The notes under the pieces are model-generated. The model did not search any database and was not told the origin of the DNA. It saw only the letters and a program-made list of their open reading frames with translations. Shown one piece after another: positions 31,576 to 41,681 of a stretch of DNA of 56,050 nt. The stretch spans positions 1-56,050 of the forward strand of contig JANXML010000192.1 of NCBI GenBank assembly GCA_025354645.1, in the 5' to 3' direction. Position numbers and translations under genes: made by a program. The stretch's first letter is position 1. Every line of letters begins with the position of its first letter. The stretch comes from Arcicella sp. (GTDB lineage Bacteria; Bacteroidota; Bacteroidia; Cytophagales; Spirosomataceae).

Positions 31576-32077
31576 ATATTCCTTACTTTTAGATTAGGTA
31601 AACCTCTTTTGGTTTACGTTTATAAAATAGTTAATCGACGACTTCCACAAGAAGTCTATTTAAAGAGATAAACAATTAGTAATGATGTGTGGTATTTGGA
31701 TTATTCTGTGAAATGTTTTCCTGTGATACATCAGGAATGAGAAAAGATTATTAACAAGTATCTGAATGTCAGATATTTAAGAGTGGCGGGTTGTGTAATA
31801 CTTCAAAGAACGATTTGTACATTTCCACAGACGATTCACAAAGATAATACTTTATTTTTTAATAAAACAACCGTTTGATAAAAAACAAAGATTGTACTAT
31901 TTTATGATTCATATAATTATACCAATTAATAGTATAATACAATTCCAACATAATACAGTAAGGAACAGAAAAATTTTGTAAAAAAAAGATTTCAAAATTA
32001 TCATTCAGAAACGTTTAAAAAATAAAAATAGTGCAAACACCAAGAAATCTTTACGAACTTTGCAAAAAAATCACAAT
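31576..32077. other. 500-base AT-rich gap with no recognised gene
   Basis: Lies between divergent lipoprotein and rlmB genes and so should hold both promoters. I see no hairpin of note, no tRNA and no coding frame of more than about 40 codons with coding character. Confidence 0.5.
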
Positions 32078-32893
32078 ATGTCAACAGAAAATAAAGCAGA
32101 AGGTTACAAAAAGCCAGAAGGATATAAAAAGCCATTTCAAAATAATTATTTCAATCAAGCAAAACCTGAAAGTAAAGATATTGTCTTCGGAATTCAGTCG
32201 GTTTTGGAAACGCTTCGTGCGGGAAAAGAAATTGATAAAATATTAGTACAAAGAGAATTAGGAAGTCTTGAAGTATTGGAGTTTGCTCGTATGCGTGGCG
32301 TACCTGTACAGAAAGTTCCTTCTGAGAAATTGGATAGAATTACTCGTAAAAATCATCAGGGAGTAATCGCTTTTGTATCAGCAATTAATTACGCAAAACT
32401 TGAAAATATAGTGGCAGATGTGTATGAAAAAGGGCAAGTTCCGCTCCTACTCATCCTTGACCGCATTACTGATGTACGTAATTTCGGAGCGATTGCAAGA
32501 ACGGCTGAATGTACGGGAGTTCATGCCATCGTAATTCCTACAAAAGGAGCTGCTCAAATAAATGCCGATGCCATGAAGACTTCTTCAGGAGCTTTGAATT
32601 TTCTGCCTGTTTGCCGTGAAGAAAATTTATTTATGACCATAAAATACTTGCAAAACTCTGGTATTCAAGTAGTTGCATGTTCCGAAAAATTATCAAAAAA
32701 TATTTATGACATAGATTTCACTATCCCAACTGCTGTTGTTATGGGTTCGGAAGAGGATGGAATTTCGGAAGAATTATTGAGAGTTGTAGATGAATTGGCA
32801 ACGATTCCGATGTCAGGAAGAGTGGGTTCATTAAATGTTTCCGTGGCAACAGGAGTTGTACTTTTTGAGGCTTTGCGTAAACGAATAGCATAA
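32078..32893 (+). CDS. rlmB: 23S rRNA (guanosine-2'-O-)methyltransferase RlmB (SpoU/TrmH family)
   Basis: 271 residues from ATG 32078. Substrate-binding N-domain (FGIQSVLETLRAGKEIDKILVQ) then the SPOUT knot: DRITDVRNFGAIARTAECTG (motif 1), IVIPTKGAAQINADAMKTSSGAL, VMGSEEDGIS (motif 2) and IPMSGRVGSLNVSVATGVVLFEALRKR (motif 3). Methylates the ribose of G2251 in E. coli 23S numbering. The first 35 residues are a Lys-rich tail with a repeated YKKPEG unit. Confidence 0.94.
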   Translation: MSTENKAEGYKKPEGYKKPFQNNYFNQAKPESKDIVFGIQSVLETLRAGKEIDKILVQRELGSLEVLEFARMRGVPVQKVPSEKLDRITRKNHQGVIAFVSAINYAKLENIVADVYEKGQVPLLLILDRITDVRNFGAIARTAECTGVHAIVIPTKGAAQINADAMKTSSGALNFLPVCREENLFMTIKYLQNSGIQVVACSEKLSKNIYDIDFTIPTAVVMGSEEDGISEELLRVVDELATIPMSGRVGSLNVSVATGVVLFEALRKRIA

Positions 32894-32907
32894 AAATTTA
32901 ATTTCTT

Positions 32908-32956
32908 TATTAAAATCATTAAAACTGGTATTTTGCCAATTTTAATGATTTTTTTG
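32908..32956 (+). terminator. Terminator of rlmB
   Basis: AAAATCATTAAAA..TGG pairs with CCA..TTTTAATGATTTTTTT around a 7-base loop, directly after the rlmB stop. Confidence 0.85.
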
Positions 32957-33352
32957 GTCTTTAATCAGTTAATAAATCGGTTATACCGTTCGCTAATTCA
33001 TTGCTTAAAGTGAACATCAAATTAATAAACTTATCATATATTTGTTAAATTTTTAATCAATACACGGCACTTAAAACTATTTATCTTACCATCTACTTTT
33101 TTCATTTTCCACAAAACCGCTAATTCACAAACCTGTGGCTGCACTATCTTATATTTCGATATGAAACAATACAATGGTTTGTTCCAATGTGATAGTCATT
33201 AAAATGTAAATAAATTTTAATGGGAATTTAAAGCCAACCTCAATAATTAGAAAAATATCTAATTAACATTGACGATAAAATACATAAACAATTGATATTC
33301 AATAAGTTATTAGATAAAATTATTAAAGATTGTTACCATAAATTAGTAATTT
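32957..33352. other. AT-rich gene-free stretch, possible small RNA on plus
   Basis: No coding frame. A plus-strand terminator closes it at 33353-33386, so something may be transcribed rightwards through it. A TATATTTG box near 33034 fits the -7 consensus but lacks a matching -33. I looked for RNase P, tmRNA, 6S and SRP consensus segments and did not find them. Confidence 0.4.
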
Positions 33353-33388
33353 CTAAAGCCTGATGCTGATAGTATTAGGCTTTTTTGT
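33353..33388 (+). terminator. Orphan intrinsic terminator
   Basis: AAAGCCT at 33354 pairs with AGGCTTTTTT ending near 33386 with an interior GATGCTGATAGTATT loop. It faces, tail to tail, the minus-strand terminator of the adjacent repeat module at 33412. Confidence 0.7.
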
Positions 33389-33400
33389 GGAAAATGAACA

Positions 33401-33995
33401 AAATAAAAAGAGCATCGCCATAAGCAATGCCCTTTCCCGTCTTACCTCTAAACCTATTTAACTATGAAAAATAACTGCACTATTATATATCTAAAATTAC
33501 CGCCTTTTCCCCTCTTACTTATAAAACTATCGGTCGGCGTTCCGATTAACTATGAAAAATAACTGCACTATTATATATCTAAAATTACCGCCTTTTCCCC
33601 TCTTACTTATAAAACTATCGGTCGGCGTTCCGATTAGCTATGAAAAATAACTGCACTATTACAATTTTCGTAAACTAATAAAATGCTCCATCAAATCTTA
33701 TGCCTCAACCTTGAAATCATTAGCTTAAAAAAAGTGGTGTCTCCAAAGGAAACACCCTTTCCCGTCTTACCTCTAAACCTATTTAACTATGAAAAATCTT
33801 ATTATTTTTTGTTAATTTCAACTTATTAGTTTGAAAAAAAGTGGTGTCTCCAAGGGAAACACCCTTTCCCGTCTTACCTCTAAACCTATTTAACTATGAA
33901 AAATCTTATTTGTTTAATCAAAAATTCTTTCCTCTCATTCCTCCAAATCTATCGGAAGTACCATTTAGGTCAGCATTCCGATTAACTATTAAAAA
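33401..33995 (-). repeat. Array of related promoter-terminator-like modules
   Basis: Five or six related units. On minus each reads CATAGTTAA, then a TAGGTTTA, TAGTTTTA or TAGATTTG box, then GTAAGA(C/G)GGGAAAGG. In three units (ending near 33412, 33734 and 33841) this is followed by a hairpin and T-tract: GGGCATTGC/GCGATGC, GGTGTTTCC/GGAGACACC (twice). Two units (33464-33551 and 33552-33639) are exact 88-bp tandem copies but for one base, with an added CGGAACGCCG mini-hairpin and no terminator. The two GGTGTTTCC units repeat with period 107. On plus each starts an ATGAAAAAT context. Confidence 0.85.
33464..33661 (+). repeat. 88-bp direct tandem repeat
   Basis: Units begin with ATG at 33464, 33552 and 33640 (third copy breaks after about 21 bases). 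Units 1 and 2 differ at one position (ATTAAC versus ATTAGC). Each plus-strand unit opens a 32-codon frame starting MKNNCTIIYLKLPPFP whose stop lies in ATGAAAAATAA of the next unit. Confidence 0.95.
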
Positions 33996-34530
33996 TTCAG
34001 TTTTAACCCAAATCAATCAATTCAAATATTGCTTTTTTAATTATAAAGAATAAACAATTTTTTGAGCAATTATACTTAATAATACTTCAAATATAAAACT
34101 CTTTTTTACACTATAATAACGTTAATTTTTATGAGTTTGTTTCTTGATTATTATCAATAAATAAACATAAATTAAGCGTTAAAAAGTTCCCATTGTCCGC
34201 TACTTTCCTGTTATATTCTTTTAACGTTAATGCTTTTGTAAAGTCACACATTTTAAAAAATATTTTTAAAAAGATTCTTAGAATTGTCTAAAAGCACTTT
34301 TTTATATTTAACGATGCAAAGTTCTGCAATATTATTGAATCTTGCAAATTTTTCTTGCAAATGTCTGAAAATAGTTTAACCTAAGTACCTAAGTATCAGT
34401 AGCCAAAGTGGCTATATGTGCTTTAAATGGCTTTTTATCCAAATATTATATTGCAAAGGATTAAAAAAGTTTGCAAAGATTTTGTTATTAATATCTGGAA
34501 CAACATTGTATAATTCTTAGAATAATACAA
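33996..34530. other. AT-rich gap with no recognised gene
   Basis: Continuation of the gene-free region to the pth stop. The only structure seen is a perfect TAGCCA-AAG-TGGCTA hairpin at 34400-34414. Its flanks have no T-tract. Confidence 0.5.
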
Positions 34531-35091
34531 TTATTGATTAAAGTCATTCATAGTCTTATCTAAGCCCTGTAAACAGAAACTCAATATCATTTCTGATGCT
34601 CTATCTAAGTGTTCTGGTAATTGTTCAAATTGTTCCCCTTGAAAGTTCCCTAAAACGTAATCTATCTGTCTTCCTTTTCCAAAATCATCCCCCACACCGA
34701 AGCGTAGTCTTGCATAATTAGAATCACCTAAAATTTCTTGAATATTTCGCAATCCATTGTGTCCACCGTGCGAACCTTTAGATTTCATTCTTAATTTTCC
34801 GTAAGGCAAGGCAATGTCGTCAATAACAATGAGAACATTTTCTTTCTCTATTTTCAATTCCTTCATCCAATAATTTACTGCCTTACCGCTTAGATTCATA
34901 AAAGTAGTTGGTTTAATCAAATGGATTTGTTTGCCCTTGTGTTTTATTTCTGCGTGAGAAGCGAGACGTTCCATCGAAAATTTTGTCTCAAATTCACCCG
35001 CCAATCGGTCAAGAACCATGAAACCTACATTATGACGTGTGAGCAAATATTCAGGTCCTATATTACCGAGACCTACGATTAGATACTTCAT
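34531..35091 (-). CDS. pth: Peptidyl-tRNA hydrolase
   Basis: 186 residues, typical. Cleaves peptidyl-tRNA that has dropped off ribosomes. Motifs: MKYLIVGLGNIGPEYLLTRHNVGF with catalytic His20, KPTTFMNLSGKAV (Asn of the active site), IVIDDIALPYGKLRMKSKGSHGGHNGLRNI (Asp and His) and ARLRFGVG. Starts a minus-strand unit; the divergent OmpA-family gene begins 205 bases away. Confidence 0.97.
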   Translation of the reverse strand: MKYLIVGLGNIGPEYLLTRHNVGFMVLDRLAGEFETKFSMERLASHAEIKHKGKQIHLIKPTTFMNLSGKAVNYWMKELKIEKENVLIVIDDIALPYGKLRMKSKGSHGGHNGLRNIQEILGDSNYARLRFGVGDDFGKGRQIDYVLGNFQGEQFEQLPEHLDRASEMILSFCLQGLDKTMNDFNQ

Positions 35092-41298: not shown

Positions 41299-41446
41299 GA
41301 TAATTTATACACATTTAAAAGTTCATAATCGAATTTGTGTGTATGTACATGAATTTTCATTTTTTATCAATTAAAATACTTATTTGTCACAAAATGCAAT
41401 AAAAAAACTTGCATTTAACAGTCATTTAATAGGAAAAAAGTATATA

Positions 41447-41526
41447 TTTGTTTTAATTTTCATAGTTAAATAGGTTTAGAGGTTAAACAGATAAGGGCGG
41501 GAGTTTCTCCTGTCCTTATTTTTATT
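41447..41526 (+). ncRNA. Candidate miniature transcription unit (same family as the 33.4 kb array)
   Basis: TTTG at 41447-41450, exact 20-base spacer, TAGGTTTA at 41471-41478 form a full Bacteroidota promoter. A 13-bp stem with two G-T pairs (41491-41503 with 41507-41519, loop TTT) and TTTTTATTTT form the terminator. The predicted RNA is about 40 nt, mostly the hairpin. CATAGTTAAATAGGTTTAG matches the array at 33.4 kb exactly. This is a prediction from signals only. Confidence 0.55.
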
Positions 41527-41681
41527 TTAAAGATTCCAATAATTTTACGCTTTCAATCGTATGAATTATCCCATTTAACCTCCACAATTTCCCTTCAATT
41601 TCTTCATTAAACGAATAATCTGGCTTTATTATCATTCAACACCGATAGAGTATGACAGGATTGATACCAAAATAATATTAT

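Follow-up and report, generated by a model that had tools for sequence, protein, structure and literature searches.

What are the related sequence units that stand in series between rlmB and pth of Arcicella (NCBI family Flectobacillaceae, order Cytophagales), and which strand of them matters? We addressed this question in a stretch of 56,050 nt from an Arcicella sp. contig, which as a whole is called the window here, and in related genomes. A first-pass annotation made from the letters alone had reported five or six related minus-strand units in a gene-free region, and this description held: six units were found, starting at plus-strand positions 33995, 33903, 33796, 33647, 33559 and 33471, three of them intact, two situated within a perfect 88-bp tandem duplication (33559 and 33647) and one more degenerate, and none of the listed ORFs between rlmB and pth has ≥80 aa. 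The features used below are as follows.

32060-32893, plus strand: rlmB.
33399-33471, minus strand: intact putative sRNA unit with a GGGCATTGC-type hairpin (stem 33405-33437); covariance model R1, 84.5 bits; FopS model, 23.1 bits.
33482-33559, minus strand: degenerate unit with interrupted seed and without terminator, in the 88-bp tandem duplication.
33570-33647, minus strand: degenerate unit without terminator, second in the 88-bp tandem duplication.
33724-33796, minus strand: intact putative sRNA unit with a GGTGTTTCC-type hairpin (stem 33736-33756); R1 match; FopS model, 23.7 bits.
33831-33903, minus strand: intact putative sRNA unit with a GGTGTTTCC-type hairpin (stem 33843-33863); R1 match; FopS model, 21.8 bits.
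33920-33995, minus strand: strongly degenerate unit (AATAGTTAA) at the pth-proximal end of the array.
34315-34324, minus strand: promoter-like box GAACTTTGCA, 206 nt past the pth stop, at the site of the missing gene X promoter, with its first base off TAnnTTTG (21 genomes compared).
34531-35091, minus strand: pth, peptidyl-tRNA hydrolase, the syntenic anchor of the array (Pfam PF01195 and synteny).
41443-41450, plus strand: putative -7 box TATATTTG of the promoter-bearing ('master') copy.
41455-41527, plus strand: promoter-bearing ('master') putative sRNA copy with terminator AAGGGCGGGAG-TTT-CTCCTGTCCTT; R1, 87.2 bits.

We consider it likely that the units are a divergent FopS-like multicopy family of ∼70-nt trans-acting sRNAs, putative translational repressors, whose array copies derive from the 3′ end of a gene here called X. 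Every intact unit is laid out as the core TTTTCATAGTTAAATAGGTTTAGAGGTAAGACGGGAAAGG followed by a hairpin and then a T-tract, and reads as an RNA of ∼70 nt with a mostly unpaired 5′ segment (UUUUCAUAGUUAAAUAGGUUUAGAGGU) and an intrinsic terminator; the predicted length in the window is about 70-73 nt, and nt 1-28 have a predicted mean unpaired value of 0.74-0.81 in the four intact window units. The 5′ ∼28 nt would accordingly serve as the seed and the 3′ half as the terminator. A core of 43 nt is identical across the three intact array units, and a 25-nt core with ≤3 mismatches has 4 matches in the window compared with 0 in 100 shuffles. Scanning 32800-34700 for terminators gave 6 sites against 0.7 expected, and three of these are the hairpins of the intact units, with the GGGCATTGC-type once and the GGTGTTTCC-type twice, just as the first-pass annotation had described. 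In units 33559 and 33647 a short palindromic insert breaks the core behind CATAGTTAA or CATAGCTAA, and both units lack a terminator. These inserts (33529-33546 and 33617-33634) are GC-rich with a CGGAACGCCG-like core, lie inside the seed, occur also at loci L025 and L006 (degenerate units of Arcicella and of a type-B genus), and are possibly a small mobile repeat.

The hairpins were compared in an alignment of 23 units, hand-picked by us from the loci found earlier and from the window, in which 95.0% of cells are paired, compared with 43.1-66.2% in slid controls. Two-sided changes affect 11 of 13 hairpin pairs and number 88, against a shuffled mean of 23.0 (0/500), while the 22-nt core is nearly invariant; the terminator half may be free to change its sequence, not its shape. 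To judge by these sequences, the units are conserved as if functional. Moreover, among 73 distinct hairpins, selected by a minimum score that does not distinguish the two strands, wobble pairs read on the unit strand comprise 80 G-U and 7 A-C. This excess of G-U marks the minus strand as the RNA strand, and T-tracts follow the hairpins on the minus strand as well. In this respect the first-pass annotation was right: it had proposed short terminated minus-strand RNAs whose leading part is conserved and whose hairpins, fixed in position, vary in sequence.

The same annotation had offered an opposite reading, in which the plus strand would be a graveyard of the 5′ ends that secreted-protein genes once had, since on that strand the core resembles a leader ahead of ATGAAAAAT. 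We regard this, or a store of such ends as cassettes, as scarcely credible, because wobble bias and T-tracts point to the minus strand and because the window's own genome has no other copy at ≤3 mismatches: the 23-nt core matches nowhere else at that threshold, and DNA, pattern and model searches of this genome gave no further copy beyond the array and 41455-41527. The likeness of the plus strand to a gene start would come from the RNA itself, which appears complementary to start regions. In another genome, a lone extra unit-like copy off the pth locus was seen (L151, G007:C25 near 75203), with a hairpin-like repeat adjoining it.

If the minus strand is the RNA strand, the next point is where the RNA would begin. 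In the master copy at 41457, TATATTTG ends 6 nt ahead of TTTTCATAG; it fits the Bacteroidota -7 box and would put the RNA start at the core, rather than providing the -33 box that had been assigned to the copy at 41447. Among 137 distinct units scanned (identical units collapsed, units with <60 nt of flank skipped), TAnnTTTG stands 4-9 nt upstream at 39 of 49 master-type units; of the remaining 10, 6 carry TATATTCG and 4 are g21 or g53 units at or near the X position. The box is found at 0 of 88 non-master units. Five intervals preceding master units hold 7 boxes compared with 0.5 expected, and 38 intervals between array units hold 2 compared with 2.2 expected, i.e. the chance level. A box upstream of master units and absent at the others makes the core most likely the 5′ part of an RNA, with the array units lacking a canonical promoter of their own. 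The expected RNA 5′ end would lie at or just before UUUUCAUAG.

These counts bear on two other explanations. First, the array might consist of promoters or of decoys for a sigma factor, the core itself having been taken in the first-pass annotation for a promoter with a conserved -7 box; the box TAGGTTTA does resemble TAnnTTTG. We find this very improbable: most master-type units carry TAnnTTTG ahead of the core, conservation spans the whole core, and the box turns into TAGGTTAG in type-B units and differs in FopS. Second, only the promoter-bearing copy and the promoter-adjacent unit might be functional, with the other array units being inert duplicates, which is compatible with FopS-like sRNAs as far as the functional copies are concerned. 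The lack of a box at all 88 such units, the absence of any box excess between array units, the perfect 88-bp duplication and the three degenerate units in the window speak for this explanation, and the missing boxes count at the same time against our preferred explanation in respect of the production of units 2 onward. Nevertheless, from genus to genus intact units have retained the 22-nt core and hairpins with compensatory changes, where decay would be expected of inert copies, and we hold inertness of the array units to be rather unlikely. For a family of FopS-like sRNAs, the master copy at 41455-41527 would be driven by its own Bacteroidota promoter and the array copies would be made without one; that the units are transcribed, and that array copies are released by processing, is what we infer.

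The units were also examined in relatives, by searches with the core and by a covariance model. Model R1, built solely from units of the RNA family described here, gave matches in 151 of 222 family genomes at E≤0.01 and strong matches (E≤1.1e-11) in 62 of 222, covering ten genera by hand count of the table; the other 89 matched genomes (E≥1.3e-5) probably represent chance or the type-B form. At E≤0.01 the units are multicopy, with 4 matches in the window genome and 4-8 in seven congeneric genomes. At 24 of 25 mapped loci pth adjoins the units, the exception (L103) being a displaced promoter-bearing copy, and the usual order is pth, gene X, one or more units and the promoter-bearing unit. Gene X, a small secreted-protein gene in many genera, encodes about 150-160 aa with a signal-peptide-like start; two members tested have no Pfam family at E≤0.001. 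At 14 loci selected for the presence of X, the first unit starts 11-63 nt past the X stop.

Searching with a profile of X (A3) recovered the gene at the locus in 9 of 9 genomes in which its presence was known, two of which have a second, weaker match elsewhere. The same profile gave no match in eight genomes of Arcicella, five of Flectobacillus and two others (G016 and G017), together 15 genomes of four genera, several of these assemblies being incomplete. Both states occur in genus g21, where one of six genomes searched has X (L331, G201) and the other five have kept the unit without it (compare L106, L107 and L117). When 14 X-less gaps were read at the locus, no closed ATG ORF of >40 aa was present on that strand; the X start region can be recognised by eye in several of them, without a start codon. 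The promoter-like box stands 200-210 nt past the pth stop in 7 of 7 X-bearing gaps and 201-221 nt past it in 13 of 14 X-less gaps (G016 being the exception), and in Arcicella and Flectobacillus it begins with G, departing from TAnnTTTG. The array copies would most likely have arisen as the 3′ end of the X mRNA, downstream of the small secreted-protein gene; the unit would have been duplicated in tandem behind X; and X would have been lost in Arcicella and its relatives while the units stayed, with the promoter-like box kept at its old position. From the sequences, it is the RNA rather than the X protein that appears to have been kept, and the units seem to have persisted beyond the protein-coding gene behind which they had stood.

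We then compared the units with known RNA families. At Rfam cut-offs, tRNA alone was found in the whole window. At a permissive threshold, RF04319 (FopS) had the top bit score in 33300-34100, matching the three intact units over its full length with 23.7, 23.1 and 21.8 bits; these scores are below the Rfam gathering score of 56 and correspond to E of 0.38-0.87 over 4227 families, and two unrelated Rfam families gave lower E (0.11 and 0.23) with fewer bits. In relatives, the FopS model reached 25.4-34.4 bits at eight places (E 0.17-9.7), which unrelated families equalled (mir-3910, 34.9 bits). In the reverse direction, R1 was run on 12 loci from the FopS search: the five above the FopS cut-off (L285-L289) were all matched in place with 17.9-23.2 bits, and six of seven sub-threshold loci were matched in place with 10.8-38.6 bits, L294 being the one that was not. 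Leaving aside the antisense strand of the L290 hairpin, R1 scored no higher than 14.7 bits elsewhere in the 37 kb. Of 395 Bacteroidota genomes surveyed with the FopS model, 5 had matches above the cut-off, and the Arcicella window genome had no match. Since the cut-off was tested and missed, we do not file the units under RF04319; they probably work like FopS and are probably a distant homologue, as far as sequence comparison can tell.

FopS is described in PMC11697453 as a paralogous sRNA family of gut Bacteroides, conserved within Bacteroidaceae, with ∼65-70 nt and an unpaired 5′ seed followed by a terminator; it blocks translation at the start codons of SusC and glycosidase mRNAs, the protein RbpB binds it and counteracts this, one B. 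theta member is 3′UTR-derived, and a phage copy is reported. Common to FopS and the units are a 5′ seed that is single-stranded (by prediction in the units) and has UUUUUCAU-GU close to its start, much of the seed in full-length alignments, a terminator right behind the seed, a length of ∼65-70 nt (again predicted for the units) and many paralogues; the 3′UTR origin of one FopS member may also have a parallel at the X-bearing loci. FopS has a promoter box of the sigma-ABfr type just upstream; among the units a box stands at most master-type copies and at none of the array copies. Moreover, the units score only 21.8-34.4 bits against the cut-off of 56, differ in the middle of the seed, and form a tandem array at pth with a host gene X that may be absent. 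FopS pairs at start codons of glycan-use mRNAs, and the units have a complementarity to gene starts by sequence, with glycosidases and sugar oxidoreductases among the candidate targets; unlike in FopS, the SusC starts of the own genome are unmatched.

Other systems are less close in detail. GibS of Bacteroides (RF04182) has a conserved unstructured 5′ seed over start codons (PMC7366714), and RF04182 matches the window weakly, with 19.9 bits against a cut-off of 115, but GibS differs in its length of about 145 nt and its two seed regions. LhrC1-7 of Listeria are sibling sRNAs (PMC11697453). They belong to another phylum than the units. Several LhrC genes stand in tandem with a terminator each, and they have their own promoters and a seed unrelated to that of the units. 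In X-bearing genomes, where the unit lies 11-63 nt past the stop and would share the mRNA terminator, the units resemble the 3′UTR-derived sRNAs reviewed in PMC9438474; they differ in that Arcicella and others lack the coding part and the units remain. An intermediate unit was seen at L290 (G336, another family of the class), with 43.9 bits to FopS and 38.6 to R1, which suggests a wider spread of such RNAs in the phylum. Weak FopS matches at L296, L297, L299, L302, L310 and L313 seem to lie opposite gene-start-like sequence (...ATGAAAAA), and in other Bacteroidota the FopS model may be detecting sequences complementary to start regions.

The complement of the seed is ACCUCUAAACCUAUUUAACUAUGAAAA. 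The seed is complementary to AUGAAAA start regions and would pair, like FopS of Bacteroides, with this motif and with ∼12-20 nt ahead of it. Allowing ≤3 mismatches, 15 genomes had 101 non-unit matches, no excess over the 161 of a reversed-pattern control. In the controls used next, ATGAAAA was retained and the bases upstream of it were shuffled. Searched at ≤2 mismatches in 16 Aquirufa-type genomes (g13) and one genome of g56, 17 in all, CCTATTTAACTATGAAAA gave 68 matches, 34 in pth-locus units and 34 outside units. Of the latter, 29 have an intact ATGAAAA and 10 are at 0-1 mismatch, compared with 10 matches (3 with ATGAAAA) and 7 (6 with ATGAAAA) for two composition-matched controls with the 11 upstream bases shuffled, none of these being at 0-1 mismatch; the reversed pattern gave 20 non-unit matches. 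Except for two, the 29 ATGAAAA matches begin an ORF of ≥90 codons or share a homologous start region with one. Five of six control ATGAAAA matches inspected (of nine) begin ORFs too, so the excess of seed matches lies in their number.

The 27 gene-start matches fall into 13 gene families and include many orthologues. A sialidase-like BNR protein (6 genomes, exact) and a NanM-like kelch protein (5) are joined, by Pfam, by 3-keto-disaccharide hydrolases, esterases, a xylose-isomerase-like protein and a GMC oxidoreductase. The remaining candidates comprise a phosphodiesterase, a DUF7133 protein and proteins whose family tells little; the carbohydrate share is given here as raw counts. Within orthologues the target site is conserved (19/19 in sialidase and kelch, 18/19 in DUF1080), which is weak evidence because the flanks are conserved too. 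Five candidate duplexes, chosen by complementarity, have predicted energies of -16.9 to -33.5 kcal/mol compared with -8.3 to -9.9 for shuffled seeds. With the type-B seed, gene starts were found for two kinds of Gfo/Idh oxidoreductase, an arabinofuranosidase, a gluconolactonase-like protein, a TonB receptor and four familyless proteins, in small numbers. In the own genome there are 7 non-unit matches at ≤3 mismatches, and of two inspected one starts a GH30 glycosidase gene and the other is at no gene start. SusC is the main target class of FopS, yet the 29 SusC starts read in this genome (30 loci, L068 having no start found) all have ≥6 mismatches in 19. SusC leaders as a source of the core were rejected on the core search and this SusC start check, and the idea that SusC genes of Cytophagales start with the motif was not borne out.

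The seed could also be something other than an antisense to gene starts. The RNAs might be made and act as a sponge or decoy, the seed being the site of an RbpB-like RRM protein or of another RNA that is titrated by the many copies. A core of 22 nt that is multicopy, near-invariant and mostly unpaired would suit such a role, and RbpB binds FopS in Bacteroides (PMC11697453). A protein site, however, need not complement start regions with the AUG in register and above two composition-matched controls, as the core does, and we judge a sponge to be improbable. For FopS-like sRNAs, repression via start-codon pairing is plausible from the complementarity: pairing would keep a set of mRNAs from being translated, among them several that serve carbohydrate breakdown or oxidation, presumably in answer to some stimulus.

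Scanning viral contigs for TTTTCATAGTTNAATAGGTT gave 22 contigs (L333-L354), and a predicted hairpin and a run of ≥4 T follow the core in all of them. In 19 of 22 the core lies 6-12 nt past a stop codon, which in 18 ends a protein of 330-331 aa and in one (L341) an HNH endonuclease behind such a gene; three of the 18 proteins and the one of L341, i.e. those tested, are metallophosphoesterase-like. Many of these contigs are close relatives and thus not independent. An alignment of 18 phage units has 98.1% of its pair cells preserved, the changes being mostly one-sided, and the seed identity among them is largely built in by the search pattern.

Our literature search, which covered few subscription papers, found no report of such RNAs in Cytophagales. 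If the units are working relatives, the FopS system would extend to environmental Cytophagales and to phages, and the locus would offer a clear example of a host gene outlived by its RNA, both states being found in genus g21. As a broader and tentative reading, which we see as possible without favouring it, FopS-type anti-start-codon RNAs would form an ancient layer of sugar control throughout the phylum Bacteroidota, the RNA would have outlived its gene repeatedly in Flectobacillaceae, and phages would rewire host sugar genes in infection by means of a seed identical to that of the host, carried at the tail of a phage mRNA.

As to the phage contigs themselves, neither DNA nor portal protein gave named relatives, and terminase alone gave matches, with <60% identity. 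Several of them carry portal, terminase or endolysin genes. In L350 the core continues with GAGGTAAGAC, as it does in host array units, and L334 shows the type-B form.
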